Origin: Spirulina sp. SIO3F2
Lineage (GTDB): Bacteria > Cyanobacteriota > Cyanobacteriia > Cyanobacteriales > Spirulinaceae
Direction of reading: 5' to 3'
Assembly (NCBI GenBank): GCA_010672165.1
Contig: JAAHHN010000047.1
Span: forward strand, 1 to 35,852
Length of the DNA: 35,852 nt
This document shows, in pieces, positions 1-15,510 of the stretch. Every line of letters starts with the position of its first letter. Within the stretch, counting starts at the first letter, position 1. The notes beneath the pieces were generated by a model. The model was given only the letters and a program-made list of their open reading frames with translations. It did no database searches and was not told the DNA's origin. The translations under genes and the position numbers were made by a program.

Positions 1-561
1 CAACACTTCAGCCGCAGTTCCCGGCATGGAATCCAAACCGGCCTGGTGCAGCGCCGTAATCACCTCGGCATAACTAAGATCATCCTGTTGGGCTATGAAC
101 TGAATTTCTTGGGGCGAGAAAGCATGGAGATGGAGCGTTGGAAAGTCAGTTTTAATCGTCTCCACTAGACGCAGATAATAGTGCAGCGAGGAGCCATTTA
201 CCTGGGCAGCAGGATGCAGACCGCCTTGCATACAAATTTCGGTTGCCCCCTGAGCAACCGCTTCGGCAGATTTACTAAGGATCTGTTCCCAAGAGAGCCA
301 GTAAGCCCCTTCGGTGTCTGGATCGCGGCGGAAGGCACAAAAGCTGCAATGCTGTTCACAAATATTGGTGAAGTTAATATTGCGGTTGACCACATAGGTC
401 ACGGTCTCACCCGCTTGTTGCTGACGGAGGCGAGCGCTTGTAGCTCGGATTTGAGCCAGGCTCTCGGAGTCGCGGGCTTCTAGTAGTGCAACCCCTTCAG
501 CGGGGGTAAGGTCATGGCCCTGTTCAGCTTTAGTGAGAATGTTGAGGAGAGAAGCAGTCAT
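1..561 (-). CDS. cofH: 7,8-didemethyl-8-hydroxy-5-deazariboflavin (FO) synthase subunit CofH, 5' part
   Basis: Radical SAM enzyme that, with CofG, makes the deazaflavin chromophore FO, the precursor of F420 and the antenna cofactor of some photolyases. The visible 187 codons run off the left edge of the window, so the C-terminal half is missing here. The sequence starts MTASLLNILTKAEQG. It carries the FO-synthase stretch VVNRNINFTNIC followed by the CxxxCxxC iron-sulphur motif as CEQHCSFCAFRR, then the glycine-rich AdoMet-contacting segment EICMQGGLHP. CofH and BioB/MqnC-like enzymes share this layout, but the NFTNIC and CAFRR wording is typical of CofH. The gene is divergent from the small gene beginning at 647. 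Basis: motifs are seen directly; function is from the family. Confidence 0.9.
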   Translation of the reverse strand, partial: MTASLLNILTKAEQGHDLTPAEGVALLEARDSESLAQIRATSARLRQQQAGETVTYVVNRNINFTNICEQHCSFCAFRRDPDTEGAYWLSWEQILSKSAEAVAQGATEICMQGGLHPAAQVNGSSLHYYLRLVETIKTDFPTLHLHAFSPQEIQFIAQQDDLSYAEVITALHQAGLDSMPGTAAEVL

Positions 562-646
562 AATACAAATCGGAAGGCGATTTAGAATGCTATTGAGTTT
601 AGATTGCTGTTTAGTTTAGGGTGTTGGGGGTCAGAAAAGGGGGTTT

Positions 647-1066
647 ATGGAGAGAGGTTTACTCTGGTTGCCGTTGCTGCTCGGTTTTATTGGTTTGACG
701 TGGGCGGGTTGGCATGAATATCAAAAGGTGCAGGTCTATCAGACCTGGTCACAGGGATTTGAGCGCACCAAATATGACATCTATGCAGTCATGGGTCTGA
801 AAGATAACGAAATTACCTGGGGCTATCCCACCCGCCAAGGCCCCATTAATCTGCAACAGTTCTCGCTGGCAACAGTGGAGAGCATTTTGCTGGAAGTCAA
901 CCAAACTGTGGTGACCGATTGGGAGCGCCCACCACGCAAGGGCAAAGCAATCTTGAAGTTTGTGCGGTCGGAGCAAGGCGCAGTTGAAATTCCGTTTACC
1001 GAAATTAAGCTGGCGATCGCTTGGGGCAAGTTCCTGCAAACGCAGCTTTCAGAACTCAAGGAATGA
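647..1066 (+). CDS. Small membrane-anchored protein of unknown function
   Basis: I do not recognise a family for this 139-residue protein. Residues 4-22 form one hydrophobic segment (LLWLPLLLGFIGLTWAGW), so it is probably anchored by a single N-terminal helix or uncleaved signal. The remainder is soluble, mixed in charge and ends QLSELKE. The ATG at 647 has a G-rich leader (GGGGGTCAGAAAAGGGGG) that could serve as a ribosome site. It is divergent from cofH with an 85-bp gap, and kptA follows about 90 bp downstream with its own promoter-like sequence, so co-transcription with kptA is not needed. It reads as an intact gene with cyanobacterial codon use, including a GCGATCGC site near its end. 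Confidence 0.7.
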   Translation: MERGLLWLPLLLGFIGLTWAGWHEYQKVQVYQTWSQGFERTKYDIYAVMGLKDNEITWGYPTRQGPINLQQFSLATVESILLEVNQTVVTDWERPPRKGKAILKFVRSEQGAVEIPFTEIKLAIAWGKFLQTQLSELKE

Positions 1067-1144
1067 AGAAGGTATCTGCAATTAGCTATCGACACCCCAC
1101 ACCCGAAGCCCTACACCCAGTTCTTACTCCTTGAGCAATTTATG

Positions 1145-1150
1145 TATAAT
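1145..1150 (+). promoter_or_regulatory. Probable -10 element of kptA
   Basis: A perfect TATAAT lies ten bases before the ATG at 1160. If it is used, transcription would begin at about 1157 and the kptA mRNA would be almost leaderless. I see no convincing -35 hexamer at the usual distance. The element overlaps the upstream in-frame ATG at 1142, which argues against that ATG as the start codon. Confidence 0.5.
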
Positions 1151-1159
1151 TTATGCATC

Positions 1160-1720
1160 ATGGACACCAAACGACTCACCAAAATTAGTAAATATCTCAG
1201 CCGTCATCTGCGTCATCAACCCGAACGGTTAGGGCTAACGCTCGCGCCAGGGGGCTGGGTAGAAGTGGAGGACTTGCTGAAGGCCTGTGCCAAACAACAA
1301 TTCAAAATCCACCGTTGGGAACTAGAGCAAGTGGTGGCCAAGAATGATAAACAACGCTTTTCCTTGGATGAAACCGGGACACGGATTCGTGCGAATCAAG
1401 GTCATAGTGTCGAGATTGATTTGCAACTTGAAGCGACTGAACCGCCAGCGGTGCTCTATCACGGGACAGGTCATGGCTCAGTTGCCGCAATTTGGGAATC
1501 AGGTTTGCTCAAGATGTCGCGCCATCATGTGCATCTCTCACCTGACCCTGAAACTGCCCGCAAGGTGGGCAGCCGTCATGGTCGCCCGGTGATTTTTGCG
1601 GTGGATACAGCGGCAATGCAGAAGGCAGGCTTCACATTTTTCTGTTCTGAGAATGGGGTATGGTTGGTGGCGCATGTGCCATCGCAATATCTCAAGCTTG
1701 TGGAGCAGGGAATGGTTTAG
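1160..1720 (+). CDS. kptA: RNA 2'-phosphotransferase, Tpt1/KptA family
   Basis: Removes an internal RNA 2'-phosphate using NAD+, forming ADP-ribose 1'',2''-cyclic phosphate and nicotinamide. In eukaryotes it finishes tRNA splicing; the bacterial role is unclear. The 186-residue protein has the family architecture: an N-terminal winged-helix lobe (KYLSRHLRHQPERLGL, then GGWVEVEDLL), the RIRANQGHS motif, YHGT, and the C-terminal ADP-ribosyltransferase-like lobe with SRHHVHLS and GVWLVAHVP. The conserved arginines and histidine of the catalytic set are all present. An in-frame ATG at 1142 would add six residues, but it overlaps the TATAAT at 1145, so 1160 is preferred. It is convergent with jetD, with only 16 bp between them. 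Length is normal for the family. Confidence 0.93.
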   Translation: MDTKRLTKISKYLSRHLRHQPERLGLTLAPGGWVEVEDLLKACAKQQFKIHRWELEQVVAKNDKQRFSLDETGTRIRANQGHSVEIDLQLEATEPPAVLYHGTGHGSVAAIWESGLLKMSRHHVHLSPDPETARKVGSRHGRPVIFAVDTAAMQKAGFTFFCSENGVWLVAHVPSQYLKLVEQGMV

Positions 1721-1736
1721 GGTGATGCTGAATCGC

Positions 1737-2912
1737 TCACATCATCAGCCCTCCTGCACTAAACTCATGTAACACCGCGTTCACATAACGCTGATGGATA
1801 TGTTCCTGTTCAAGGCGCTGCTGGGTTGTGGCGAGATGCTCATAGAGTTGTTGCTCGGCGGCAGTAAGGTGGGGCAACTTTTCGAGACTGGCTCTTGTAT
1901 CCGCCACCACAAAAGCCTGAAACGTCTCCAAGGTACGCTGATCCATCATCACGGAGAGAGTTTGAGGAAAGTGCGATCGCAACTGAGATAAAATCTTGAA
2001 CCCATCCACATCCAAATCCCCCCAATAAAATATCGGACAGTCTTGGAGCCAAGCGGCCGCTTTAAGCTGCCCCACGGCATAACCACTGCCAAAAATGCCA
2101 ATACTCTGAGCCAAAGGCGGCAGGGTCAAAAAATTCATCAAGTTTTCGGTGAGCCAGCATTGGGGTTGAGCCAAATTGAGTTGAGCGAATTCCGAAAGGG
2201 GCAGGCTGAGATCACTGGCCGAAAACTGGACGCGATCGCGCAACATTGGATCTAAAATTCGCAGACGAACCAAGGGCTCCCGGTATTTCAAACCCAGACG
2301 TTTCTCAAAACGATAGTCTTTCTCCCCCGTAATATCAACTAACTGCTCGGGGGGTAAAATCGCCTCTAGCAACGCTTGAATAATGCTTTTGTGCTGCTCA
2401 ATAAATTTAGTATGTACCCGAATGGGTAGCTCACGGATATACAAATTCGGTCGGGGACAGCGCTGAAAATAGTGACACACATCCAATAATGCCTCCCAGT
2501 CATTGCTGTATTCGATTACTTTTTTGGGATGGGCGCTGAGCCAGGGCTTGAGTTGGGGCTGCACTCGGAGGGTCAAGCGAACCTGCTGGCGAAAGCGCTC
2601 GACTTCTTTGGCTTTGCGCAGCAGGCGGAGATAATCTGCTTCGTTGTCAATCCAAACCTTAGTCGGCAGCGACTGCATGCCGTGGCGGCGGGTATTGCGC
2701 TGCACCAGTTCGAGATGGTAGCCATAGCCGCGCTGTACTTTCGCCTGGTTGAGCAGTTTGGTGACAGCATCCCGTAGGGCAGGGTAGTCGCTGGGCACTT
2801 TGCCCACCGGAAATTCCAGCGGGAAGAAATTGTCGCCTTCTTCAATCACACTCGTGAGGAATTTGCTGTACTGGCGTTCCGCTTTTTGCTTAATTTCATC
2901 AGGAGAGATCAT
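1737..2912 (-). CDS. jetD: Wadjet anti-plasmid system protein JetD (DUF3322/DUF2220, Toprim nuclease subunit)
   Basis: JetD is the nuclease of the Wadjet system; it cleaves small closed circular DNA once the JetABC SMC-like motor has extruded it. The 391-residue protein begins with the DUF3322 region (residues about 1-190, with WIDNEADYLRLLRKAKEVERF) and ends with the DUF2220 Toprim-like region. Visible Toprim features are E256 in the TENLMNF stretch, the GSGYAVGQL turn, and FYWGDLDVDGF with D299 and D301. The start lies 19 bp after the stop of the DUF1016 nuclease gene on the same strand, so the two should be co-transcribed. It is separated from jetC by more than 3 kb, which is unusual, because jetABCD are normally contiguous. 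All expected acidic residues are intact. Confidence 0.92.
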   Translation of the reverse strand: MISPDEIKQKAERQYSKFLTSVIEEGDNFFPLEFPVGKVPSDYPALRDAVTKLLNQAKVQRGYGYHLELVQRNTRRHGMQSLPTKVWIDNEADYLRLLRKAKEVERFRQQVRLTLRVQPQLKPWLSAHPKKVIEYSNDWEALLDVCHYFQRCPRPNLYIRELPIRVHTKFIEQHKSIIQALLEAILPPEQLVDITGEKDYRFEKRLGLKYREPLVRLRILDPMLRDRVQFSASDLSLPLSEFAQLNLAQPQCWLTENLMNFLTLPPLAQSIGIFGSGYAVGQLKAAAWLQDCPIFYWGDLDVDGFKILSQLRSHFPQTLSVMMDQRTLETFQAFVVADTRASLEKLPHLTAAEQQLYEHLATTQQRLEQEHIHQRYVNAVLHEFSAGGLMM

Positions 2913-2931
2913 AAAATTGGCGATCGCCCCC

Positions 2932-3975
2932 CTAGCCTAAATCACTCAACTGGGCTTCAATTTGCGCGATTGTGGGCAAACTGGCCTGGATTTCATCCGG
3001 CAACTCCCGCATTAATTGGTATTCCGAGATTCCGATGGGTTTATGGATATCGCTGAGCGCCCATTCCGCCACCAAGCGATCGCGTCGCTTACACAGCAGC
3101 AAGCCCATACTGGGTGCATCTCCCTCGCGCCGTAGCTGCTCATCCACCGCCTTGAGATAAAAGTTCAGCTTGCCTGCATGTTCCGGTTCAAACTCTCCGG
3201 TCTTCAACTCGATTACCACATAGCAATGGAGCTGAACATGATAAAAAAGCAAGTCTAAAAAGAACTCCCGCTCCCCCACTTGCAAAGGGACTTGCCGCCC
3301 CAGATAGGCAAACCCTGCGCCTAGTTCTAGTAGCACTTGGGTGATGTGTTCGACTAAGCCACGCTCTAGATCCCGCTCATTGTAGTCAGATGTCAGGGTC
3401 AGAAAGTCAAATATATAGGGATCTTTGAGAGTTTGTTGGGCTAAATCCGATTGGGGCGTAGGCAGGGTGGTAGCGAAGTTGGCCACCGCTTTGCCTTCCC
3501 GCTGCCAAAGCTGACTCTCGATTTGATGCGTCAGCACATTACGACTCCAGCCATGCTCAATGGTTTTGTTGACGTAGTAGAGAGCTTCAACCTGAGTTTT
3601 GCACTTGGAAATGATGACCAAATTATGTCCCCACGGAACCAGAACTAAATTGGCAACAGCCTGTTGCCAATTTGCCTCGTTGGCGGCGTAGAAGAGATAC
3701 CATTGCCGAATTGAGCGAAGATTGCGGTAAGAAAACCCCTTTAGCTCCGGGAATTCTGCCCGCAGGTCTTGACTCAACTGCTGTAGAAAGCCATCGCCCC
3801 AACGGCGTGTTTTTTGCTTTTCAACGATTTCCGCACCGAGTTGCCAATAAAATTCCAACAATGCTGAGTTGACAGCCACTGCGGCTTTGAGTTGGAGCGA
3901 TCGCAACCGGGTTTTCAGTGCAATAACCCAGTCTTGATAATCTGCTGACTGTTGCAGGGATTTAGGTTTGCCCAT
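2932..3975 (-). CDS. DUF1016 / YhcG-type PD-(D/E)XK nuclease family protein
   Basis: A 347-residue protein with the two-part layout of the YhcG/DUF1016 family. The N-terminal helical domain (residues about 12-150) carries AVNSALLEFYWQLG, GFSYRNLRSIRQWY and WGHN. The C-terminal PD-(D/E)XK-like nuclease domain starts near DPYIFDFL and has candidate metal residues E209, D241 (FFLDLLFYH) and E256-L-K258 (VVIELK). Members occur in defence islands and near restriction systems, but their substrate is not settled. Here the gene is the first of a two-gene unit with jetD (19-bp gap), so it may act with Wadjet or simply drive jetD expression. It is divergent from terD, with a 171-bp shared upstream region. 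Family assignment is firm; the role is inference. Confidence 0.9.
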   Translation of the reverse strand: MGKPKSLQQSADYQDWVIALKTRLRSLQLKAAVAVNSALLEFYWQLGAEIVEKQKTRRWGDGFLQQLSQDLRAEFPELKGFSYRNLRSIRQWYLFYAANEANWQQAVANLVLVPWGHNLVIISKCKTQVEALYYVNKTIEHGWSRNVLTHQIESQLWQREGKAVANFATTLPTPQSDLAQQTLKDPYIFDFLTLTSDYNERDLERGLVEHITQVLLELGAGFAYLGRQVPLQVGEREFFLDLLFYHVQLHCYVVIELKTGEFEPEHAGKLNFYLKAVDEQLRREGDAPSMGLLLCKRRDRLVAEWALSDIHKPIGISEYQLMRELPDEIQASLPTIAQIEAQLSDLG

Positions 3976-4146
3976 GACAGGTGGAGATACAGTTCAATAC
4001 GTGCAAGCGTACCGTGATTTGTGGGTAAAGCTGGGGTTTGGAGAAGATTCTTTAAATGCGATGAATGTTTACGGTTACTGCGGCAGGCCGGTTGTAATCT
4101 TGTAATCTGACAAGTTCTGTTATGGACGCAAAGAGGAGGATGCTGC

Positions 4147-4734
4147 ATGGTGTCAGCAAAAGGTGGCTCAATGGATTTAACAAAAGGTCAAAGCTTTAAT
4201 CTCACAAAAGGCGGTCAGCCACCGCAAGCGATGTTTGTGGGTTTGGGATGGACGCCCCAACGCGGCAGGCAAAATATGGATCTGGATGCATCGCTATTTA
4301 TGCTGGATGCCAATGGGATGATGCCCAGTCAGCAGCATTTGATCTATTTCAACAATCTCATCAGTCCTGATCCGTCCCAGTCCATTCGACATTTGGGCGA
4401 TAATCTCACAGGGGATGGAGAAGGGGACGATGAGCAGATTATTATCAATCTGCACCAAATTCCGAGCAATGTTGATTCCCTGTTGGTGGTGATCAATATC
4501 TACGATGCGCTCAGTCGGGGTCAGAATTTCGGCCAAATTGAGGAGGCGTTTGTCCGCTTAGTAAATATGCAGACCCAACAGGAGGTTTGTTTCTTTGATT
4601 TAGATGAGGACTTTTCTTCGGCTACATCAATGCAAATGGCGAAGATCTATCGCTCAGGTGGGAGCTGGCAAATTCAGGCGTTGGGTTTGCCTGTGGCGGG
4701 TGGATTGCAGGAATTGATCAATATCTATTTGTAA
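4147..4734 (+). CDS. TerD-family stress protein
   Basis: A 195-residue single-domain TerD protein. TerD proteins are cytoplasmic Ca2+-binding proteins linked to tellurite, phage and general stress resistance. Visible features are LTKGQSFNLTKG near the start, VGLGWTP, DLDASLFMLDANG, the acidic segment GDNLTGDGEGDDEQI that supplies calcium ligands, LVVINIYDA and the C-terminal YRSGGSWQIQALG. The ATG at 4147 is preceded by the strong ribosome site GAGGAGGA (4133-4140), six bases away, so this start is preferred over the internal ATG at 4171. It stands alone on the plus strand between two parts of the Wadjet locus. No other ter genes (terABCEF) are visible, so a full tellurite operon is not present here. 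Confidence 0.92.
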   Translation: MVSAKGGSMDLTKGQSFNLTKGGQPPQAMFVGLGWTPQRGRQNMDLDASLFMLDANGMMPSQQHLIYFNNLISPDPSQSIRHLGDNLTGDGEGDDEQIIINLHQIPSNVDSLLVVINIYDALSRGQNFGQIEEAFVRLVNMQTQQEVCFFDLDEDFSSATSMQMAKIYRSGGSWQIQALGLPVAGGLQELINIYL

Positions 4735-5203
4735 TTTGGTGATTGGAGTTAGGACATCACGCTGTACAACGCTCAAATTCAACTCGACTCCAGCGATCGC
4801 CATTTTCTAAAGAACTGTGAAAGTGTTGTGATCATAAAAGTGTTGTGATCATGATCTCTTGCCCAGCATCATGATTTCTATATTATGGGACAGTATTAAG
4901 TCCGCTTAGAGGAGGGAAAGAGGTGAGCACGCTCAAATCTTGAATTGCTTGAGTTCTAGGTTTGAAGCGATCGAGCTTGGTGAGCAATGAAGCGTAGAGA
5001 TCCAGCCAGATATCTGATCATTTGTGTGAAGATGCCAAAATGGGTTGCCATCCTCTTAAATCTTTGAGTATCTTAAAAATCTAGGGAGAGAAAAATACTT
5101 TGAGGTTTCAGTCTAACTAAGTGAAGCCTGGCCTACTTGGGCAGATTTCACTCCATCATCACAATCACACTCACCACCCATTTACACAACCCAAATTCTG
5201 TCG
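4735..5203. other. Intergenic region upstream of the PEP-CTERM gene
   Basis: There are 469 bp without a credible gene. The region holds one HIP1 site (GCGATCGC, near 4793), the 17-bp-period direct repeat at 4820-4852, and A/T-rich stretches that could contain the promoter of the gene at 5204. A purine-rich GAGGAGGGAAAGAGGTG near 4911 resembles a ribosome site, but the frame after it closes within a few codons. I see no terminator-like hairpin for terD. Confidence 0.6.
4820..4852 (+). repeat. Direct repeat, two copies of a 16-bp word at 17-bp period
   Basis: The word AAAGTGTTGTGATCAT occurs at 4820-4835 and again at 4837-4852, identical in both copies and separated by one base. Each copy contains the palindrome TGATCA. 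A perfect tandem pair at this spacing could be a regulator-binding site or a slippage product. It lies about 350 bp upstream of the PEP-CTERM gene. Confidence 0.7.
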
Positions 5204-6040
5204 ATGAAGCTTCCTACAATCATGCGTGCCTACAAATCCTGCTTACCCCTGCTCACATTAGCGACTGCGATCGCAGCGGCGAGTGCAGCGCCAGCCCAAG
5301 CGTTTACACTTTTCTTTGGGGAAGATATTAACCCCAATCCCCAAGATACCAGCAGCACCTTCGATGATATTGTTAACTCTCGCGCTGCTGAGCAGGACTT
5401 TCTCGCCGAGTTAGACCGTTATGGCACGGAGGACTTTGAATCGTTTGAACCGGGTACGCCTGGCCCCTTGGCTTTGGAATTTGAGGGTTTAGGTTCGGCA
5501 ATTCTCAATGGTGGTGGCAATAAATCATCAATCAAGACTGTAGATGAGAGTTTACTCAACGATCCTAATGTGCCTCAAGCGCTCAAAGATGATATCGAGC
5601 GAGAAATTCGTCTGGGGCGGAATGCATCTTCGGGTGATCAGTATTTCTTAACCAACGCTGCCCAGAACTTCCAAGTTGATCTGGAAAGCCCAGCTAAAGC
5701 CTTCGGTTTCTACGCCTATGACTTGGGGGATTTTGAAGCGAAGACTTACCTGGATCTGTATGCAGCAGGTGAATTGATTGATTCGATCGAAATTCCCAAT
5801 CGTGACGGTTCTAATGCAAGCACCAATGGCTCAGCCTTTTACTTTGGTCTTTTGAGCGAGGACGAGAGCGAGTTTTTTGATCAGGTTGTCTTCCGAATGA
5901 ACGGGGTGCAGGGTGATGAATTTGCCTTTGATGATCTGACGATTTCAGCAGGCAAAGCTGTTCCCGAACCAACTACGCTCCTGGGCTTGTTGGGCTTTGG
6001 TTCCATTGCTTGTTTAACCTTGCGCAAGCGCTCGGTGTAA
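5204..6040 (+). CDS. Secreted PEP-CTERM sorting-domain protein
   Basis: A 278-residue exported protein. The N-terminus is a classic signal peptide: positive start, the hydrophobic run LPLLTLATAIAAASAA, and a likely cut after APAQA at about residue 33. The C-terminus has the PEP-CTERM tripartite signal: VPEPTTLLG, a hydrophobic helix (LLGFGSIACLTL) and the basic tail RKRSV. This signal is recognised by exosortase-type transpeptidases. The mature part is acidic (DFESFEPG, FAFDDLTIS) and resembles a beta-sandwich surface protein; its ligand is unknown. An alternative ATG at 5222 would shorten the signal peptide by six residues. No exosortase gene is visible in this window. It converges on jetC, with a shared hairpin terminator between them. 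Confidence 0.9.
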   Translation: MKLPTIMRAYKSCLPLLTLATAIAAASAAPAQAFTLFFGEDINPNPQDTSSTFDDIVNSRAAEQDFLAELDRYGTEDFESFEPGTPGPLALEFEGLGSAILNGGGNKSSIKTVDESLLNDPNVPQALKDDIEREIRLGRNASSGDQYFLTNAAQNFQVDLESPAKAFGFYAYDLGDFEAKTYLDLYAAGELIDSIEIPNRDGSNASTNGSAFYFGLLSEDESEFFDQVVFRMNGVQGDEFAFDDLTISAGKAVPEPTTLLGLLGFGSIACLTLRKRSV

Positions 6041-6091
6041 GCTGAAGCACACGTTTGCTCGGAAGCATCCCAGTTAAACAGCCCTTACCCT

Positions 6092-6123
6092 AAATCCCTC
6101 TTCCAAGTTTGGAAGAGGGATTT
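6092..6123. terminator. Bidirectional intrinsic terminator between PEP-CTERM gene and jetC
   Basis: A perfect 13-bp stem: AAATCCCTCTTCC (6092-6104) pairs with GGAAGAGGGATTT (6111-6123) around a six-base loop. The plus-strand side ends in TTTTGAT and the minus-strand side in a U-rich run, so it can stop transcription from both convergent genes. Confidence 0.85.
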
Positions 6124-6133
6124 TGATATCTAG

Positions 6134-9100
6134 CTATTTCCCCTCCGAATCATGTAACGCCTCCTGCCGCTTGGCACGATAGTCTGCAATGCCAATCGAA
6201 GCCACGCTAGAATAATCCCCTTCTGGGGTATTGGCAACAAAATGTAAATTGGCAATGTAGGGTTCAATAACATTGATTTTATCTTTGGGTGTAATTACCA
6301 ACAGTTGCAGTTGCAGGTTTTCAAAGAGTTCCATCGCATAGCGGGCGTTGCTATCATCCGATTTACTAAACGCTTCATCAATAACCACAAACCGAAAGGA
6401 TTTGGCTGCCGTACGGGTTTGGTTGAGACCAAATTGATAGGCGATCGCCGAGGCCAGAATTGTATAGGCGAGCTTCACCTTTTGTCCCCCTGACTTCCCC
6501 GAAGAATCCGTATGGTGCTCTTTTTCTGAGTCATCTGAGCGATATCGCTCGCTCACAGAGAAATCCAGCCAGTTACGCACATCAGTGACTTTGGTTGTCC
6601 AGCGGTCTTCCTCTTTAAACCGCTTAATCAAGCGCTTTTGAATGTTCTCAAACCGTTCTTCGTTGTCTGCCGCCGTCTGACGCGCCACATCCCCCAAACA
6701 AATTCGGAGATCCGCCTGAAAATCACGAATTTCGCGATCGCGGTTCTTATCACAGCACAGCTCAATATAGGTCGCGCTGGTGTAGTCAATGCCTCGTAAA
6801 GAAGCATTCAGTTGAGCCACCGCTTCTTCGATACTTTCTTCTTGCTTTTCCAGAGCACTTTTGAACATGGAGATGGCAATAATCACCTTCTCATTCATCA
6901 ATTCTTTGAAGCGTTTCTCGTGTTTGGGCAGATCATCATATTCAATTTTTGCTTGCAGTTTGAGATATTCCGGTAAGGATGCCAAGGTGGTATCTAAATC
7001 CGCTACCGTTTCAGGAAACGCCGTTTTGAAATTAAGCATCCGGATATTTAAGGTGTTCTGGCTCTCGTTTTGGCGCTTTTCTTGCCGACGAAGCTCGTCT
7101 TGGAGCTTGTCTCGCAGGTCAATTTCTGCGCGATCGATCGTCGCCAAGCTCAGGTCATAACGTCGCAAACGTGGGGTAAGCTGGGCTTGAAACTGCTGAA
7201 TTGCTGTCATGTCTGCATCGACCAGAACCGCATGACATTTTTGCAGCTCTTTCTGATACCGCTCATGTTGGTCTTTTAAGCTGCGGATATCGCTGAGGAG
7301 ACGATCGCGGTTTTTCTGCACCTGAGTGAGATCGGCCTTAACGATCTGGAGCTGGGTTTCTAGCTCCCGTAGGTGATCAGAGCTGGCTTCGAGTTCAGCT
7401 TTCTGGTGCTCTAGTTCGAGTCGCTCACTTTCCGTTGTGCGCCAATCGATTGTGGCAAAATCAGTGACGTTCATAAAGTCCTGCAACCAAGACTGTTGCT
7501 GGTTGCGTTGGCGCTGCTGTTTTTCGAGGGTGGTGATCTGCTGTTGAGTTTGCTGAATTTGCACCTCTAACTGAGCCAGATCGGCTTCAAGTGCTGCAAT
7601 TTTGCTGGCGTTATTCCACCCTAAGATGTAGGTACTGCGATCGCTAATGCGGCTGCGATCATCCTTTTCGTGACGTTCCTGACCATGCTTCAGCAAACCC
7701 TCCTGGGTCAGTGCCCGGGGTTCATGGCGAAACTGTGCCTCATCCTCACAGCAAACATAGTTGAACTGCTGGTTGAGGCGATCGTGTAACCAGTCTGCAA
7801 AGGCTTCATCTTGCTTAATTTCCAAGCGGTAAGGGACTTGATCGGGTTTAGGGGCACGTTGCATCGGACTTGCGTCACTGGGCTTAACGCGAAAATATAC
7901 CAATCGTCCCCGGAGATGGGTTTGGCGGACATAGGCATTCACCGCCCGATAATCGGCATCGGCAACCAAAACACAAAGCCCAAAGCTTCGGAGCAATCGC
8001 TCGATCGCCCCTTCCCAATCCTGGTGTTCTGGGCGCACTTGCAATAGCTCTCCCACAAAGGGGAGGTCGGCTTCGTCCAAACCCAAATCAGCGCAGAGGC
8101 GATCGCGGATATCGAGATTACGCTTGGGGATTTGGCTTTTACGGCTGCGCAGGGAATCCAGTTCTGTTTGTAGATGTTCACGCTGCTTCAGCCCTTCCGC
8201 TTCCTGGAGTTTCAGCTCATCTCGCTGGGTCTGGAGCTGATGCAGATGATCTGTTATTTCCTGCTGGAGGGTTTCCCCTTGGGCACGTGCCGTGTAAAAG
8301 GTGGTGCGATCGCCATAGGCCGCTAGCCCCAGTCGCTCTGCCAGGTCATCGTATTTCTGGGTTTGCTGGCGTTTTTGTGCGACTTCGGCTGCGGCGCGTT
8401 GAATTTCTTGCTTGAGTGCTTGGAGACGTTGACCCACACTATCCTGCTTAATGGTCACTTCGAGATCGATTGCCTGTTGTTGCAGCTCCCCAAGGCGGCG
8501 ATCGCAGTCAGCCTGTTCGGCTTGGCGCTGCTCAAGGTCTCGGGTTAGGCTTTGCAAAGCCGTAGTGAGCAGGGTTTGTTTGCGATCGGCAAAAAAGTGG
8601 GGCAAGATCGCCTGTTGTTGGGTAATTGTCGCCAGAGTTTGCAGGAGTTGCTCATAGTTTTGGGCTTCTGCACTTAAGGGGGCTAGGGCTTCCAGTTGTC
8701 GCCGCGCTTGCAAAATTTGCGTATGGGAGAACGTTAGGTTCTCATAGCTCTCCTGCAACCCCTCAATTTTGGCTTGCACATTCATTTTTTCGAGCATATG
8801 CTCTCGCACAAAGGAATTAAGACCGCCCACTTCCTTAATGCTCACGGTTTGATTAAACAAATCCAAGGCTTTTTCGGATTGCAACCCCAGCCGTTTACGA
8901 AATTGCTGGCTGTAGCGCCGAAATTGCTCAAAAATCTCTGCCCCTTGGGCCTTGAGCGATCGCTTTAAGTCACTGACCCGCGTGCAATTCATAAAGTCTG
9001 CTTGGATGCTCAGGGCGAGATCAGCAATCACAAAAAACTTATGCACCGACCCGTCTTTGATCCAGAGCAATTGAGCGAGGGTGACGGCCGTCTCGGTGAC

Positions 9101-9502
9101 GCGATCGCGAAAACAAGCCAACAAGACCGAAAGCTTACCTTTCTCCCGCAGTAACTTGGGCTTTGAGCCGTAAGCATCTTCAGCGCGAGTGCGACCATAG
9201 GCCCCTTGGACATAGCTTTTTTCATTGCGCTCCTTACGGGCTGTGGTGCTAGAGGCTTTGTTATAGTTGCGTCGCTGGTTGGGCACTAGCAATGTCAGCA
9301 GCCCATCGACAAGGGTAGATTTGCCTGAACCGTTGGCTCCGGTCAAGAGCGCGATTCCCCCCTGCAAGTCCACAACCCAGGGCTGTTCATGGAACGTGCC
9401 CCAGTTGAGTACTTCAAAGCGCTGGAGCCGAAAGCCAGGAAGTGGCTGGGGTTCAGTTGGCAATTCGGGGTTTGGGATCTCAAGTTGGGTCAACAACACC
9501 AT
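6134..9502 (-). CDS. jetC: Wadjet anti-plasmid system SMC-like ATPase JetC
   Basis: JetC is the MukB-like motor of Wadjet; with JetA (kleisin) and JetB it forms a loop-extruding complex that detects small circular DNA for JetD to cut. The 1122-residue protein has an N-terminal ATPase half with Walker A GANGSGKST (55-63). Long Q/E/L-rich coiled coils follow, at about 260-420 and 620-780, around a central hinge-like globular region with LCVLVADADYRAVNAYV. The C-terminal ATPase half has the signature SGGQK (1004-1008) and Walker B VVIDEAFSKSD (D1042, E1043). All catalytic motifs are intact and length is normal. The usual upstream neighbour jetB is about 830 bp away, beyond nested repeats, so jetC may now depend on its own promoter. 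Confidence 0.93.
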   Translation of the reverse strand: MVLLTQLEIPNPELPTEPQPLPGFRLQRFEVLNWGTFHEQPWVVDLQGGIALLTGANGSGKSTLVDGLLTLLVPNQRRNYNKASSTTARKERNEKSYVQGAYGRTRAEDAYGSKPKLLREKGKLSVLLACFRDRVTETAVTLAQLLWIKDGSVHKFFVIADLALSIQADFMNCTRVSDLKRSLKAQGAEIFEQFRRYSQQFRKRLGLQSEKALDLFNQTVSIKEVGGLNSFVREHMLEKMNVQAKIEGLQESYENLTFSHTQILQARRQLEALAPLSAEAQNYEQLLQTLATITQQQAILPHFFADRKQTLLTTALQSLTRDLEQRQAEQADCDRRLGELQQQAIDLEVTIKQDSVGQRLQALKQEIQRAAAEVAQKRQQTQKYDDLAERLGLAAYGDRTTFYTARAQGETLQQEITDHLHQLQTQRDELKLQEAEGLKQREHLQTELDSLRSRKSQIPKRNLDIRDRLCADLGLDEADLPFVGELLQVRPEHQDWEGAIERLLRSFGLCVLVADADYRAVNAYVRQTHLRGRLVYFRVKPSDASPMQRAPKPDQVPYRLEIKQDEAFADWLHDRLNQQFNYVCCEDEAQFRHEPRALTQEGLLKHGQERHEKDDRSRISDRSTYILGWNNASKIAALEADLAQLEVQIQQTQQQITTLEKQQRQRNQQQSWLQDFMNVTDFATIDWRTTESERLELEHQKAELEASSDHLRELETQLQIVKADLTQVQKNRDRLLSDIRSLKDQHERYQKELQKCHAVLVDADMTAIQQFQAQLTPRLRRYDLSLATIDRAEIDLRDKLQDELRRQEKRQNESQNTLNIRMLNFKTAFPETVADLDTTLASLPEYLKLQAKIEYDDLPKHEKRFKELMNEKVIIAISMFKSALEKQEESIEEAVAQLNASLRGIDYTSATYIELCCDKNRDREIRDFQADLRICLGDVARQTAADNEERFENIQKRLIKRFKEEDRWTTKVTDVRNWLDFSVSERYRSDDSEKEHHTDSSGKSGGQKVKLAYTILASAIAYQFGLNQTRTAAKSFRFVVIDEAFSKSDDSNARYAMELFENLQLQLLVITPKDKINVIEPYIANLHFVANTPEGDYSSVASIGIADYRAKRQEALHDSEGK

Positions 9503-9691
9503 GATTGCAAAGAAATGACTGCTCCGATTTTGTATTGTTGGTGCGATCGATTGCTAGGTGATGTAACGATATTTAATTCAGTGTTGCCGCACAACCTCAG
9601 GTAGACTGCGATCGCCTCCTACCTTCTGAGGATAATTTTTTAGAGCGGGCGAATTTCGCAATCGCTAGAATCCTGATTGGGTGGGCAATGT

Positions 9692-10024
9692 CTAGTACTG
9701 CGAGGCGGAGTTCAGAGTTCAAAGTTCAGAGTTCAAAGTTCAGAGTTCTATGAATTTTGAATGGATGGCTTATTTCTGGGTGCATCCCAGTTGTGCAATG
9801 AGTATAAATACTCAAGAGCTTTAGAGCTGTTAAATTGCAATTTTTGGCTGCATAGAAGATCATTGGGGGGGATTTCACTATCGATCTGAGCCTTGATCAC
9901 TGAGAGTGGTTCATACATTCTGATTAAATTGCTATGTTTTTATTCAAATTTATTCAAAATAGATAGTTTTCTTGTACTGTCTGCATAGCTGGGATGCCCC
10001 CTTATTTCTGCCGTTCTGTACTAG
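9692..10024 (-). mobile_element. Miniature inverted-repeat element, copy 1 (interrupted)
   Basis: It runs from CTAGTACTGCGAGGCGGAG (9692 onward) to CTGTACTAG (10016-10024) and is the reverse of copies 2 and 3. Left arm 9707-9748 is six tandem heptamers of the AGAGTTC/AAAGTTC type; then comes TGAATTTTGAATGGATGG, and the element resumes at 10011 after an insertion. Removing the inserted block 9779-10010 gives about 101 bp, the same size as copy 3. It has no coding capacity. Confidence 0.8.
9778..10001. mobile_element. Second miniature element nested in copy 1, with target-site duplication
   Basis: About 222-224 bp with inverted ends: GGTGCATCCCAGTTGTGCA at 9779-9797, and at 9982-10000 a sequence whose complement reads GGGGCATCCCAGCTATGCA (16 of 19 match). 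It is flanked by the perfect direct repeat CTTATTTCTG at 9769-9778 and 10001-10010. Because the element may begin one G earlier and end one C later, the true duplication is 8-10 bp. There is no internal reading frame, so it is a non-autonomous (MITE-like) derivative of an insertion sequence. Confidence 0.8.
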
Positions 10025-10125
10025 TGCAGCGTCAAGCTTAAAACTGTGAGTTGTTCGTTTCCACATCACTTACTCGGCAATAGTGCTATCGATAGACAAC
10101 ACACAAAATTAGAGCTGACAGAATA

Positions 10126-10237
10126 CTAGTACTCGACGGCGGAAATAAGCCACCTATTCAAAATCCACCCAATATCTGTCATACAGGCACTTTGAACTTT
10201 GAACTCTGCACTCTGAACTTCCGCCCTGCGGTACTAG
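10126..10237 (+). mobile_element. Miniature inverted-repeat element, copy 2
   Basis: 112 bp bounded by CTAGTAC (10126-10132) and GTACTAG (10231-10237). The ends are imperfect inverted repeats (CTAGTAC, five variable bases, GGCGGA). The inside shows GGAAATAAGCCACC, TTCAAAATCCA, then heptamers TTTGAAC and TCTGAAC. It is colinear with copy 3 and inverted relative to copy 1. Confidence 0.8.
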
Positions 10238-10333
10238 TGTCATGGCACAGCTAAAAAAGTGAAATAGAAGTCCGTTAGGTTACTGTGGCGAGCAAGATGC
10301 CGTATCCCTCCAAAAGGCTACGCCAATGACAAG

Positions 10334-10912
10334 CTATGATTTTTCATTGGCTTGAAGATTAACCAGCTTTTGCTTCAAGCGCTCCAACATTTCAGCATCA
10401 ATTTTAGCTTTGAGGAGGGCAAGCACTTCGTAGTTTTCTTCCTCACTGTTGAGCCGTCGCAAAAAGCCCAACTCAACTCCTTGCCGCACCAGTTTACTCA
10501 CATCGCTGCGAAATTTGTCTTCGTTATTACCAATGGGTAAATAGGGCTGCAAAACATCACGGATTTTTTCAATGCTCAGCACGAGTCGTCCCGTGGCGTC
10601 ACTGGCATCAAAGCGCAATAATTGTTCTCGCAGCAGGACACACAGCACAGTCAGGTTAAAACTCAACTGTCGTCGAACCATCAGGCGGGGCAACGGCTCT
10701 ATACGTGCGTCCGGGTCAGGTTCCGGTTGGCTGAGATAGGCAAAACCCTCTGTTTCGTAGTTGTGAACCTGGAGGCCAATCTTGCCCAGGTAGTCCTGGA
10801 TAGGGGTGAGATAGCTTTGCAGCCGATCCCAATGGGGATCGGTGCTATACATTGCACCTTGCAAGAGCTTGAGAATAACAGGCGCATAGGGTTGAGGTAG
10901 ATCAGGCGACAT
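10334..10912 (-). CDS. jetB: Wadjet anti-plasmid system protein JetB (DUF4194)
   Basis: JetB is the KITE/MukE-like winged-helix subunit that bridges the kleisin JetA and the SMC-like JetC. The 192-residue protein matches DUF4194: a start rich in proline with PYAPVILKLLQGAMYS, a WDRLQSYLTPIQDYLGKIGLQV segment, the conserved PRLMVRRQLSFNLTVLCVLLREQL helix pair, and the C-terminal winged-helix region with DKFRSDVSKLVRQGVELGFL. The start at 10912 lies nine bases after the end of jetA, so these two are translationally close and surely co-transcribed. Its stop is followed by the repeat cluster rather than by jetC. Confidence 0.9.
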   Translation of the reverse strand: MSPDLPQPYAPVILKLLQGAMYSTDPHWDRLQSYLTPIQDYLGKIGLQVHNYETEGFAYLSQPEPDPDARIEPLPRLMVRRQLSFNLTVLCVLLREQLLRFDASDATGRLVLSIEKIRDVLQPYLPIGNNEDKFRSDVSKLVRQGVELGFLRRLNSEEENYEVLALLKAKIDAEMLERLKQKLVNLQANEKS

Positions 10913-10921
10913 AGACTGATG

Positions 10922-12388
10922 CTAGTGATAAAACACGATACGGGGTAGGGATAACTCTAGCAACTTATTGGGGTCAAGGCTAGGAATAACCAGGGTTTCA
11001 AGCTGACTCGGATCAACGCTGTACTGGGGAGATTGGGTGGCGATCGCTAAATACGCCACCACCTCCGGTAAACCCTGGCTCACCGGATAGAGGTGCAGCA
11101 AATCGGCTAAGGTAATGCGCGATCGCTGGCTTAAGGCTTGGTCAATCTGGCGCTGGAGCAATTGTTCATCCACATAAAATTGCTCAAAGAGTTCAGCCAA
11201 CTCCGCTTCTGTGGTGAGATCAACGCGCTCGGTAAAGTCTAAATCAAAGGTGGGCGGAGCTGTTTTTTCTAAGGGATGCAGCGGCCGTGCCATCGAGAAA
11301 TCAAGGTGAGCGGGGCCTTGGAGTTGCCAAAAATCCGGCTCTGTTGGCCGCGCCTCAGTGGCGGCCAGCGCTAGCCGTTGCACCTCACTGATCAATTCAG
11401 CCACCCGGCGATTCTCTTGGCGGCTGCGCTCATCAAGCATTTGCCGTAGTTTTTCAGTGAGGTGCTGGTTGGACTGGACAATATGCTCACCGGCATTGAG
11501 TAGGTTGCGCTCAATCCGGCGCAGCAGAGGATAATCAGCGGTAAGCGATCGCAATTCCTCCAAATCATAAGCAGTGCGAATCAGTTCTTTGAGTTCTTGG
11601 CGCTTAGTAGCTGACATCAAAAAGCGCCAAAACCCATAGAAGCTCTGGCCTTGATCTGAGTCTTTGAGTTCCTGATCCGCATCCAACACCTGACCAATGA
11701 CTGTGCCTTTGCGGCTATCTTGGGCCAGTTGAGCAGCTTGGACATTACGGGTGAGAGCGCGAAAGTTTTGTTCGATTTCTCGGAAGTCGGCGATGAGTTG
11801 GCGGGTGACTTGGTTGGCGAGTAAAAACCGCTCCTGGAGTTGGGTGCGGGTGAAGCGATCGACTTTCCCTGCCGCCTGAATATCGTCAATTTCCTGTTGA
11901 ATTTGGTCACGCTCTGCTTCAAGTTGGCGGACGCGTTCCGCCACATCAACAGTGCTCCCCGCTCTGATGTCTTGGAGGAGTCTAAAAATCTGTAAAAACC
12001 GCGATTCTGTGCCTACAAATTCATCCCGTTGTTGGAGTTCTTCGAGCCAGGCGATCGCTTTTTCCGTCGCAGGGGTCAGGGTAAAAACGGGCTCATCGGG
12101 GTTGCCCGTGCTGCTGCTGCGTTCAAAGGTTTTGCGCAGTAGCTGGCTATCGCACCAAGTACGAAGATAGTCTTTGGCACTGCTAGGATAGCGATCGGGG
12201 TAGAGATCTTGGAGATAACTCAGATAATCGCTCAGTTTGCTTTCAAGCTCGGTTTGTCCAATGGTGATCTGTTGGTGTGCTTTAAATTGAGCATATAAAA
12301 AGCTCACAATTAAGGCAGCATTCGGACTCCGAAGTAGTTTGAAGGTGGGGGAGCACTCAAGTTCTTGTTTGACTTGTTCGTAGTCCAT
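10922..12388 (-). CDS. jetA: Wadjet anti-plasmid system kleisin JetA (DUF3375)
   Basis: JetA is the MukF-like kleisin of Wadjet that links the two JetC heads. The 488-residue protein starts MDYEQVKQELECSPTFKLLRSPNAALIVSFLYAQF, the expected N-terminal winged-helix of DUF3375. A helical linker region follows (RVRQLEAERDQIQQEIDDIQAAG, VTRQLIADFREIEQNFR) with the conserved SFYGFWRFLMSATKRQEL stretch in the middle. The C-terminal small winged-helix region has ITLADLLHLYPVSQGLPEVVAYLAIA. It is the first gene of the jetAB unit. The upstream 348 bp to the divergent slipin gene must carry its promoter. Length and all regions look complete. Confidence 0.92.
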   Translation of the reverse strand: MDYEQVKQELECSPTFKLLRSPNAALIVSFLYAQFKAHQQITIGQTELESKLSDYLSYLQDLYPDRYPSSAKDYLRTWCDSQLLRKTFERSSSTGNPDEPVFTLTPATEKAIAWLEELQQRDEFVGTESRFLQIFRLLQDIRAGSTVDVAERVRQLEAERDQIQQEIDDIQAAGKVDRFTRTQLQERFLLANQVTRQLIADFREIEQNFRALTRNVQAAQLAQDSRKGTVIGQVLDADQELKDSDQGQSFYGFWRFLMSATKRQELKELIRTAYDLEELRSLTADYPLLRRIERNLLNAGEHIVQSNQHLTEKLRQMLDERSRQENRRVAELISEVQRLALAATEARPTEPDFWQLQGPAHLDFSMARPLHPLEKTAPPTFDLDFTERVDLTTEAELAELFEQFYVDEQLLQRQIDQALSQRSRITLADLLHLYPVSQGLPEVVAYLAIATQSPQYSVDPSQLETLVIPSLDPNKLLELSLPRIVFYH

Positions 12389-12736
12389 CGCAAGACAAGG
12401 GAGAACAATAATAAAGAATAGTATTGTATCGCCAGCGATATGCTACCGATTGAGCATCGAAGTTTAAGAATTGGCGATGAATCATATGGATAATTGAAGC
12501 ATACAGCGATAAGACCTTGAGGCGATCGCAAACCACGGCCGTGATATGAAGTAGGCTCAACAATTTGAGTGGGTTGAATATGATGATTACCGTTGAGTTC
12601 ATGGGGTTTTACTCCTGTGCAACCCAATCGGTAGCGCTATCAACGGCCTCATTCTAGTCTTCCGCTTTGGCCAACGCCTTAGGGTAACTGCTGTAACCTA
12701 GAGTTGGCTAGTTTAAACGATAAGGCATAGAGGAAT
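12389..12736. other. Intergenic region between divergent jetA and slipin genes
   Basis: 348 bp that should hold two divergent promoters. Close to jetA the minus strand is very A/T-rich (around 12400-12430), with -10-like words such as TACAAT and TATTCT. One HIP1 site lies near 12520. Short frames on the minus strand overlap the jetA start and have no family features, so I do not call them genes. Confidence 0.5.
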
Positions 12737-13531
12737 ATGTTTTTTGGCATCTGTAACCAGTGGGATCGGCACGTATTGTTTACCTTGGGAAAATTCACCA
12801 AGATAATTGAACCCGGTTTATATTTTCACATTCCGTTCTTGCAAGGGATTAAACGCATTGTCGATATCAGAATTGTGACTTACACTGTGCCTCTTCAGAA
12901 AGGGCTCACCAAAGACAATATTCCTGTTGAAGTTGATGCGATCGTGTTTTATAAAGTTACTAATGTAAAAGATGCGGTCTTGAATGTGGATGATTATCAC
13001 AAGGCGACCCAACTCTCTGTTCGATCTGCTATCAGAGATATGGTAGGAAAGTCAACATTGGATGAACTGCTATCACAACGCGATAAAATTGGCGATATTG
13101 TCAGAGAGCACACCTCCGAATTAGTAACACAATGGGGAGTCTTGATTGTCACGGTGGAAATCAAAGATGTGATTGTATCAAAAGAGCTTGAAGACTCCAT
13201 TGCCCGAGAGCCTGCGGCAGAACGAGAGAAGCGAGCCCGAATTCTTTTAGCAAAATCAGAAGAATTAGCGGCTGATGCGATTGTTAATGCTTCGACTAAA
13301 TATGCTTCTGATCCAGTGGCGTTGCAGCTTCGTTCGATGAACATGCTGTATGAAATGTGTATGGAGGGCAAATCCACAATGGTGTTTGTTCCTACAGTTA
13401 ACACAGGAAATGGAATGCCCAGCATTATCGGTATTGAAGGGATACAGAGTCTGCTTGTGCAGAATAAAGTGAGCGAATCGAAGCAAGAAAAATCTCCTGA
13501 CAACCTCGCTCAAGAGAGTGATGAAAACTAA
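12737..13531 (+). CDS. Slipin-type SPFH/band 7 protein without N-terminal membrane hairpin
   Basis: A 264-residue band 7 protein of the stomatin/slipin group; these scaffold membrane microdomains and influence membrane protease activity. Seen: LFTLGKFTKIIEPGLYFHIPFLQGIKRIVDIR, the PVEVDAIVFYKV strand, RSAIRDMVGKSTLDELLSQRDKI, and the helical EPAAEREKRARILLAKSEELAADA. Typical slipins begin with a hydrophobic hairpin before the band 7 domain. This one begins directly with MFFGICNQWDRHV, and the TAG at 12731 is in frame upstream, so no longer start exists. It may attach peripherally or through the domain itself. AGAGGA sits just before the ATG. The 2OG oxygenase gene follows closely on the same strand, and no NfeD partner is seen. 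Confidence 0.88.
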   Translation: MFFGICNQWDRHVLFTLGKFTKIIEPGLYFHIPFLQGIKRIVDIRIVTYTVPLQKGLTKDNIPVEVDAIVFYKVTNVKDAVLNVDDYHKATQLSVRSAIRDMVGKSTLDELLSQRDKIGDIVREHTSELVTQWGVLIVTVEIKDVIVSKELEDSIAREPAAEREKRARILLAKSEELAADAIVNASTKYASDPVALQLRSMNMLYEMCMEGKSTMVFVPTVNTGNGMPSIIGIEGIQSLLVQNKVSESKQEKSPDNLAQESDEN

Positions 13532-13570
13532 AAAGTTTCTCCTGAACCCATCCTATTGCCGAGTCAAAAT

Positions 13571-14128
13571 ATGGACAACTTTCCGCTTCAGGTTCCTTTT
13601 CGATTTGACACCATCCCACTGCTTTGGACTGTCCCTAACATTTACTCTCAGGCAGAATGTGCGGGTTTTATTGCAATGATTGAGCAGGCCAATCCAGGAT
13701 TAGCCAGCAATAATCCCACATTCCGGAATCAAGACCGAGTGATTGTTGATGACCCGGCTATTGCTAGCGACCTGTTCAATCGCTTGGAACCTCACTTACC
13801 GCATCGGATCTATCGCTTTCAACTCCGTCGTTTGAATGAACGCTTACGCTTTTATCGATACAACGTGGGTCAGCAGTTTGCACCTCATATGGATCACTGG
13901 TATCAACCAAGCGATCGCGAAATCACCTTACTAACCGTATTGGTTTATTTCAATGCCAATTTCACAGGTGGAGAAACCCGCTTTATGGAGCAGCTAGAGG
14001 ATGTGATCCAGCCTAAACCAGGCTTGGCGGCCATATTCCAACACAAAATTAGGCATGAAGGTTGTGAGGTTCGGCAGGGCACAAAGTATGCCCTGCGAAC
14101 CGATGCAATTTATGGTCTTGAGGAATAA
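13571..14128 (+). CDS. 2-oxoglutarate/Fe(II)-dependent oxygenase, prolyl 4-hydroxylase type
   Basis: A 185-residue enzyme of the P4H-like 2OG-Fe(II) family, which hydroxylates peptide or small-molecule substrates. The iron triad is visible as H106 and D108 (FAPHMDHWYQ) and H162 (IRHEGCEV). K172, ten residues after the distal histidine, is the probable 2-oxoglutarate anchor. The core strands LTVLVYFNANFTGGETRF and GLAAIFQHK are typical. A TTG five codons earlier (13556) is possible, but the ATG at 13571 gives a normal start. It lies about 40 bp after the slipin gene on the same strand and may be co-transcribed. The substrate cannot be told from sequence. Confidence 0.9.
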   Translation: MDNFPLQVPFRFDTIPLLWTVPNIYSQAECAGFIAMIEQANPGLASNNPTFRNQDRVIVDDPAIASDLFNRLEPHLPHRIYRFQLRRLNERLRFYRYNVGQQFAPHMDHWYQPSDREITLLTVLVYFNANFTGGETRFMEQLEDVIQPKPGLAAIFQHKIRHEGCEVRQGTKYALRTDAIYGLEE

Positions 14129-14168
14129 TGCAGAACTCACAACAATTGATCTTTTGCCACCATTGTAG

Positions 14169-15464
14169 TTATTTTGGAACCCCTGCTGTTAACACCTCAT
14201 TTCCTGTTTCCGTCACCAGCACATCATCCTCAATCCGGATGCCAATCCCTCGCCATTCCTCTGATACATCCGGTTGATCTTCTGCCGTTTCAATTGTTGG
14301 ACTGATATAGAGTCCTGGCTCGACGGTGACGAGATTCCCCGGCTCAAACACCGACCAATCCTCCTCGCTCACCTTATAAGTCCCTGAATCATGCACATCC
14401 AAGCCCAGCCAATGACCTGTGCGGTGCATATAGAAAGGTTTGTATTTTTCCTCTTCAATCAATGTCTCCAAATCCCCTTGCAGTAGACCCAAATCAATCA
14501 ATCCCTGAGTTAGCACACAAACCGCGATATCGTGATATTCATTGTAAGCCTTACCTGCTTTGACCTCCTCGATCGCCTTAAGCTGAGCCGCCAACACCAA
14601 CTCATACAATGCCTGCTGCTGCTTGGTGAACTTGCCATTAACTGGAAAGGTGCGGGTGATATCAGCGTTGTAATAGTTGTACGCGCCGCCTGCATCAATT
14701 AGGAGTAAATCCCCATCCTGAAGTTGACTGCGATTATCGATATAGTGCAGCACGCAGGCATTAGCGCCCGCTGCCACAATGGAGGGATAAGCAGGCTCCG
14801 CCCCATGCATTGCAAAAGTATGCTCCAGTTCCGCTTGAACTTGGTATTCATACAGCCCTGGTTTAGCAAGTTTCTGGGCTCGGTTGTGGGCTACCGCCGA
14901 AAGCTCTGCCACCTGGCGGAGCAGCATTAATTCTGCGGCGCTCTTGACCTGGCGCAGGGGGTGGAGCAAAAAACGAGCATCTTCGAGAGCGCGGGGACCA
15001 TAGCCATTTTTGGCAATTTTCCGTACACATCGCTGCCAATGGCGCAAAATTCGCCCATCTAAACGCTCATTGCGCCCGAGACTGTAATAGAGTCGATCGC
15101 TCTTTTTAAGATATTGCGGCAAATGCTCATCTAGCTCCGTGATCGGATAAGCTTCATCAGCCCCATACCGCTCTTTTGCAGCTTCAACCCCCGTGAGAAT
15201 ACCCGTCCAGGTTTCTTGTTCCGGGTCTTTGGGTTGGACAAAAAGAATAAACTGGTGTTCTTCATGGTGGGGGGCCAACACCGCGATCGCGTTGGTTTCG
15301 TTAAACCCAGTCAGATAGTAGAAGTCACTGTCCTGACGAAAGCGATATTCCACATCATTGTGCATCGTTGCCAACGGCGCACTGGCAAAAATTGCGGTTC
15401 CTTGCCCCAACTTTGCCAAAAGGGTTTGTCGTCGTTGCTGATATTCTGCCGCTGCGATCGCCAT
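14169..15464 (-). CDS. pepP: Xaa-Pro aminopeptidase (peptidase M24)
   Basis: Cleaves the N-terminal residue from peptides with proline second; cytoplasmic, with two metal ions. The 431-residue protein has the N-terminal aminopeptidase P domain (1-165, with RFRQDSDFYYLTGFNE) and the C-terminal pita-bread domain. Metal ligands are D257 (LLIDAGG), D268 (NADITRTFP), H351 (HRTGHWLGLDVHD), E382 (VTVEPGLY) and E412 (GIRIEDD). Length and spacing match PepP. It converges on the oxygenase gene with a 40-bp gap. The start MAIAAAEYQQRRQ is followed by a HIP1-bearing codon run. The upstream side carries a heptamer repeat tract at 15511-15573. Confidence 0.95.
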   Translation of the reverse strand: MAIAAAEYQQRRQTLLAKLGQGTAIFASAPLATMHNDVEYRFRQDSDFYYLTGFNETNAIAVLAPHHEEHQFILFVQPKDPEQETWTGILTGVEAAKERYGADEAYPITELDEHLPQYLKKSDRLYYSLGRNERLDGRILRHWQRCVRKIAKNGYGPRALEDARFLLHPLRQVKSAAELMLLRQVAELSAVAHNRAQKLAKPGLYEYQVQAELEHTFAMHGAEPAYPSIVAAGANACVLHYIDNRSQLQDGDLLLIDAGGAYNYYNADITRTFPVNGKFTKQQQALYELVLAAQLKAIEEVKAGKAYNEYHDIAVCVLTQGLIDLGLLQGDLETLIEEEKYKPFYMHRTGHWLGLDVHDSGTYKVSEEDWSVFEPGNLVTVEPGLYISPTIETAEDQPDVSEEWRGIGIRIEDDVLVTETGNEVLTAGVPK

Positions 15465-15510
15465 ACTGTCTAAAAACTCACCAATAGATTCATGTTGCTG
15501 AACTATTTTA

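Follow-up and report, generated by a model that had tools for sequence, protein, structure and literature searches.

The Wadjet genes and what lies between them

The window analysed here, 35,852 nucleotides long, is one whole contig (JAAHHN010000047.1) of the 7.3-Mb draft genome of Spirulina sp. SIO3F2, which is assembled in 453 contigs and whose relatives with named records are cyanobacteria. From position 12388 down to 1737 on the reverse strand it carries a complete type I Wadjet system, in which all four subunits, JetA, JetB, JetC and JetD, are recognised by Pfam and PADLOC models and are encoded in the order A-B-C-D on a single strand (Table 1). JetD is the sole PF09983 match in the genome, and JetA is likewise matched only once. 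The genes are not contiguous. Measured between the ends of the open reading frames (ORFs), jetA and jetB lie 9 bp apart, jetB and jetC 831 bp, and jetC and jetD 3221 bp, and the locus is divided into three units: jetAB, jetC, and jetD together with a yhcG-type nuclease gene. The original prediction, made from the DNA letters, had proposed both that the four Wadjet proteins are present with intact motifs and that jetAB, jetC and jetD are set apart; both points are confirmed, the former by open frames, Pfam matches, PADLOC type I assignments, the JetC motifs and the TEN and GDxD residues of JetD.

Table 1. Positions of the Wadjet genes and of the features between them in the window
Feature	Coordinates	Strand	Length, matches and remarks
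jetD (CAP + Toprim nuclease; DUF3322)	1737..2912	-	391 aa; PF09983 6.4e-46, PF11795 2e-41; PADLOC JetD1 1.4e-144
yhcG-type PD-(D/E)XK nuclease gene (PADLOC PDC-S02)	2932..3975	-	347 aa; PF06250 2.4e-63, PF17761 1.7e-40; PDC-S02 6.3e-149
terD-like gene	4147..4734	+	PF02342 7.7e-63
PEP-CTERM protein gene	5204..6040	+	PF07589 1.5e-05; TIGR02595
Short repeat where the PEP-CTERM and jetC genes converge	6055..6133		5 other copies in the genome, 81-86%
jetC (SMC/MukB-like ATPase)	6134..9502	-	1122 aa; PF13558 9.7e-26, PF13555 1.7e-22; PADLOC JetC1 1295.6 bits
Spacer between jetB and jetC	9503..10333		831 bp; repeat-rich
Nested MITE-like repeat complex, CTAG ends	9692..10237		546 of the 831 bp; own-genome matches, inverted arms
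jetB (KITE-like, DUF4194/MksE)	10334..10912	-	192 aa; PF13835 6.3e-33; PADLOC JetB1 1.2e-57
jetA (kleisin-like, DUF3375)	10922..12388	-	488 aa; PF11855 9.3e-108; PADLOC JetA1 4.7e-143

The separation of jetB from jetC had been described as 831 bp of repeats. The spacer is indeed repeat-rich, but the repeat complex fills only part of it, leaving 189 bp on the jetC side and 96 bp on the jetB side uncovered, and its middle (9779-10000), flanked by 77%-complementary arms, has no other copy among the 40 of 271 candidates that were scored, on which all counts for the spacer repeats rest. The complex resembles miniature inverted-repeat transposable elements (MITEs). It has an outer inverted pair (9692-9776 and 10142-10237) and, nested in it, an inner composite unit of 217 bp (10021-10237), which has CTAG at its start and end and identical limits in five other copies; short length, many copies, inverted ends and the lack of any ORF of at least 80 aa characterise this unit as well as the outer ends. 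The CTAG at both repeat ends may be either the element's own sequence or a duplication. The parts at about 9692-9778 and 10001-10237 recur elsewhere in the genome, with 97 match rows that include the window's own. Short tandem repeats with a 7-base unit (AGGGTTC or GAGTTCA) lie at 9708-9748, within the complex, and also at 15511-15574.

Between jetC and jetD, two genes on the opposite strand had been noted. Both exist, the terD-like gene and the PEP-CTERM gene, contained in the 2158 bp that part jetC from yhcG; a third gene had been overlooked, namely yhcG itself, which is on the jet strand, co-directional with jetD and 19 bp upstream of it. Its product has both the DUF1016 N-terminal and the YhcG PDDEXK C-terminal domains nearly full length, as in other nucleases of this type (PDC-S02), from which it differs by its site next to jetD; a motif-like region, LDLLFYH...VIELK, was read by eye. 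Relatives of the PEP-CTERM gene at 54-59% occur in three genomes of the same family, and the flanks examined there hold no terD, yhcG or jet matches. The idea that terD and the PEP-CTERM gene travel as a pair was rejected, as a terD match was found in the flanks of none of 19 other PEP-CTERM-like loci. Downstream of jetD, a gene for a kptA/Tpt1 RNA 2'-phosphotransferase (1142-1720) is convergent with it and ends 16 bp from its stop codon. A PADLOC scan found no match for five neighbours in the window, namely kptA, the ORF at 647 and three genes at 12737, 14169 and 16106.

Contiguity in related loci

In 148 genomes, which comprise the relatives and the genome itself, JetD was found in eight, and the same eight have a full-length JetA; in three further genomes the JetA match is limited to the last 80 or so residues. 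The other seven with both proteins, one of them (G012) from the same family, are contiguous, with jetA to jetD within about 6.5 kb. For a wider comparison, the JetD alignment served as a query that gave 340 relatives, of which the best 80, all of them named loci, were taken. These were joined by the seven relatives above, by five from 386 genomes of the window's own phylum, by 45 genomes out of 55 that matched among 395 from the phylum of a Cytophagales metagenome-assembled genome (MAG; locus L068, itself one of the 55, with the other nine left out), by six stretches in five genomes from the phylum of Chloroploca (L062, itself one of the matches; 400 searched, 26 matched, 20 with weak matches only left out) and by four from the phylum of Methanoperedens (L065; 392 searched, five matched, one already included). 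With the window this made 148 stretches, or 137 loci once 11 duplicates were dropped, in which gaps were taken from profile matches.

Across these loci the genes are tightly packed. The gap is below 250 bp in 100 of 105 loci between jetA and jetB (median 30 bp), in 104 of 109 between jetB and jetC (median 25 bp) and in 126 of 130 between jetC and jetD (median -1 bp), leaving five, five and four loci, respectively, with at least 250 bp, among which the window and L075 are each counted at both the second and the third junction; since the sample is centred on JetD, a jetD beyond the flank is invisible to these counts and loci cut by contig ends fall out of them. The window's jetB-jetC gap measured in the same way is 897 bp. 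Among viral contigs, 78 pattern matches yielded no confirmed JetD relative, and the 12 matches in plasmid records are all below 60% identity. A contiguous jetABCD is thus supported as the norm by both the closest genomes and the wider set, as the original prediction had assumed, and this locus departs from it. A compact single operon is treated here as usual for type I Wadjet and not as defining it, and the locus lacks it, its ORF gaps of 831 and 3221 bp standing against medians of 25 and -1 bp. Given the tight spacing elsewhere, it was most likely insertion that opened this locus at a later time.

Several other Jet loci drew attention in the course of this comparison. In the phylum of L068, a single contig (G681:C33, covered by L276 at 1-19900 and L201 at 8000-21652) has three stop-free jetD genes with 91-94% protein identity. 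There is jetC sequence directly upstream of two of them and a matching stretch upstream of the third, and jetC fragments, a SLFN_AlbA gene and a DUF4062 gene lie between two of the jetD genes; this looks as if the jetC-jetD end had undergone tandem duplication or accretion. Short fragments that match the JetD model over its final 40-50 residues only occur near complete jetD genes in L158, L167, L175 and L195, as if they were jetD tails left by recombination, and longer partial JetD matches are present in other genomes of the phylum of L068. In L181 (G275:C3), of the same order, about 1.4 kb of sequence splits jetD near residue 347, with jetA, jetB and jetC full length.

An intact system probably opened by insertion

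The four products share with type I Wadjet (JetABCD or MksBEFG) the subunits, their order, their strand and their conserved residues, and the locus differs in being non-contiguous, with jetAB, jetC and yhcG-jetD set apart by the repeat-bearing spacer and by the terD and PEP-CTERM genes. The arrangement is real and unusual; the system is ordinary. The reading preferred here, with a probability of about 0.7, is that this is an intact and probably functional type I Wadjet whose compact operon was opened later at two junctions. A nested cluster of MITE-like repeats would have entered between jetB and jetC, and the block of YhcG-type nuclease, terD and PEP-CTERM genes would have come between jetC and jetD, in one event or in several. 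JetA, JetB and JetC would still form the motor that extrudes loops. JetD, for which a transcript shared with yhcG is the probable source, would join in trans as a recruited nuclease that cuts small circular plasmids; the lost near-overlap with jetC would alter its level.

In one review, JetABC is described as motor and sensor and JetD as a dimeric nuclease that is inactive until JetABC acts (PMC10586767). If JetD can be supplied in trans, as seems likely, moving jetD need not kill the system. The same source states that plasmid suppression needs all four subunits and that MksBEF probably arose through loss of JetD (PMC10586767), and another paper gives the operon order mksFEBG as common to Corynebacterium and Pseudomonas (PMC10123090).

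Three other loci with a full-length jetD displaced from jetC, described below, favour this reading, although two of them are not clean. Several points weigh against it. As all four subunits are needed, the system would fail if any one unit were expressed at a low level; jetC and jetD normally nearly overlap, and any coupling between them is gone here. The inserted genes have a G+C content close to that of the jet genes, so that composition gives no foreign mark, and a foreign origin on this basis was rejected (0.50 for yhcG, 0.47 for terD and 0.49 for the PEP-CTERM gene, none distinctive). Finally, the locus is known from a single draft assembly.

Another possibility is that the contig was misjoined at the repeat between jetB and jetC, since multi-copy repeats such as those in the spacer are a frequent site of false joins. 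For this to be so, however, the false join must have restored the order and strand of jetAB and jetC by chance. That the A-B-C-D order and strand are kept together with the genome's only JetD and JetA argues against such an accident. At the other junction, the part of the insert that was searched (3976-6133) yielded nothing but a single 40-bp match and the short repeat next to jetC. An artefact is very improbable.

Another explanation holds that the insertions broke expression, leaving jetC with no promoter and jetD uncoupled, and that the system is in early decay with proteins yet to degenerate. The proteins themselves speak against a locus that is being dismantled, which the original prediction had offered as one of two outcomes: frame-disrupting changes were looked for and found in none of the four jet genes, whose frames are open and whose profile matches span nearly the whole model. 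At highly conserved columns (those kept in at least 95% of family sequences), departures equal the family medians, with 0 of 25 changed in JetA (median 0, 100 sequences), 0 of 7 in JetB (median 0, 103 sequences), 1 of 117 in JetC (median 1, 111 sequences) and 0 of 44 in JetD (median 0, 128 sequences). JetC has GANGSGKST, SGGQ and VVIDEAF, which we take to be the Walker A, signature and Walker B motifs, respectively, and the conserved acidic residues of JetD (TEN and GDxD) are invariant in the alignment with seven relatives. Judged from the proteins, a long decay appears disfavoured and is not supported, while a recent loss of expression would still be compatible with full-length JetABCD. Two of the three junctions carry insertions, and broken Jet loci are known elsewhere, such as the split JetD of genome G275 and remnants in L058 and L047. 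Promoter-like sites show no excess over chance (13 found, 11.3 expected). The age of the spacer repeats can be read both ways: some stretches reach 98% identity with copies elsewhere in the genome, compatible with a recent insertion, while copies of the inner composite unit diverge by 4-17%, so that the family is not brand new. Taken with the intact frames, early decay is considered unlikely.

It may also be argued that the split is adaptive, with jetD placed under the control of yhcG so that the supply of nuclease is uncoupled from that of the motor. The co-directional, closely spaced yhcG and jetD would suit such rewiring, as would the co-directional nearest sizeable gene upstream of jetD in three other loci with inserts before jetD, described below. 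However, the pairing is not recurrent, as a yhcG profile run over the 137 loci found a single other match, in L096, about 4 kb downstream of jetD. YhcG is common anyway, being present in 10 of 20 Wadjet genomes tested; in this genome it is multi-copy, with 11 match rows, fragments counted, where 18 relatives have 0-3, and varied neighbours surround the three other copies inspected. Promoter counts and terminator-like sites (9 found, 13.1 expected) are at chance. The split between motor and nuclease is not clean either, given that jetC is also parted from jetAB and that jetD is paired with another nuclease gene. Adaptive rewiring thus appears less probable still than early decay, and the locus is better read as an ordinary system opened by insertion.

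Defence genes before jetD

Three other loci, all among the best 80, have a full-length jetD displaced from jetC by 1.0-5.0 kb; the stretches added beyond those 80 gave none with an insert at this junction. In an Oscillochloris MAG (L052), the 4.3-kb insert consists of the methyltransferase and restriction subunit of a type III restriction-modification (R-M) system. In a Bacteroidia MAG (L075), 5.0 kb hold a helix-turn-helix/S24 regulator, a type IIG R-M protein and a 243-aa protein with no family match, in which an ExK-like motif was seen by eye. In a Saprospiraceae MAG (L081), the 1.0-kb insert encodes a BRO-N protein (PADLOC PDC-S13). These inserts are on the jet strand, in contrast to the window, where two of the three inserted genes are reversed and the candidate-defence gene is yhcG. 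Thus all four inserts between jetC and jetD carry an R-M or PADLOC candidate-defence gene, and in each of them the first gene of some size upstream of jetD runs in the same direction as jetD (19 bp away in the window, 43 bp in L081, 76 bp in L052 and 404 bp in L075). PADLOC labels of the PDC type denote candidate systems and not tested ones.

From these cases it is tentatively proposed that the junction acts as a slot that has been filled repeatedly and independently by other defence genes that attack DNA (type III R-M, type IIG R-M, BRO-N and YhcG), with jetD kept last; this is possible, though doubtful. Wadjet would bear such insertions because JetD, a dimer of its own that is recruited to the motor, does not have to be co-translated with it. 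The proposal is a lead that rests on four loci, and thus on few cases. Two of them are not clean: jetC of L052 is read in two frames, and in L075 the jetB-jetC gap is also enlarged and jetA lies outside the stretch examined. Among literature titles and the openings of abstracts, none dealt with genes inserted inside Wadjet loci, which is not proof of absence.

A preference of insertions for the jetC-jetD junction was rejected by count, gaps of at least 250 bp occurring in 4 of 130 loci there, 5 of 109 at jetB-jetC and 5 of 105 at jetA-jetB. Inserts with a gene of at least 100 aa number four at jetC-jetD and three at jetB-jetC (L158, L197 and L075), and the five enlarged jetA-jetB gaps measure 270-625 bp. 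Of the genes inserted between jetB and jetC, the two in L197 and the one in L075 have no PADLOC match, and the insert in L158 matches pVip (4.2e-22, the radical SAM protein), HEAT-repeat and other models (down to 1.1e-66), so that the difference in defence content between the junctions is not clean. That L158 insert, at 6450-13450, is 6.9 kb long and has a GNAT gene and genes for an 815-aa radical SAM/SPASM protein and a 918-aa HEAT-repeat protein.

As background, 116 of the 207 genes found to be nearest neighbours of Wadjet (those of loci L029-L115, at most 700 aa) were compared with PADLOC. The scan gave 164 PADLOC families at E <= 1e-10, counted by family and not by gene; among the matches listed (25 of the 164 families) are SoFic (3), mads_2 (3), AbiEi, BrxL, GajA, GajB, PDC-S41 and PDC-S01. 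Defence genes are thus frequent next to Wadjet in any case, and no p-value is attached to the defence content of the jetC-jetD inserts.

The locus offers a natural case of intact Wadjet proteins encoded in three units, and thus a way to test if anti-plasmid defence depends on co-translation and on fixed ratios of the subunits. If the insertion of defence genes between jetC and jetD proves recurrent, one defence system would serve as a landing place for another.

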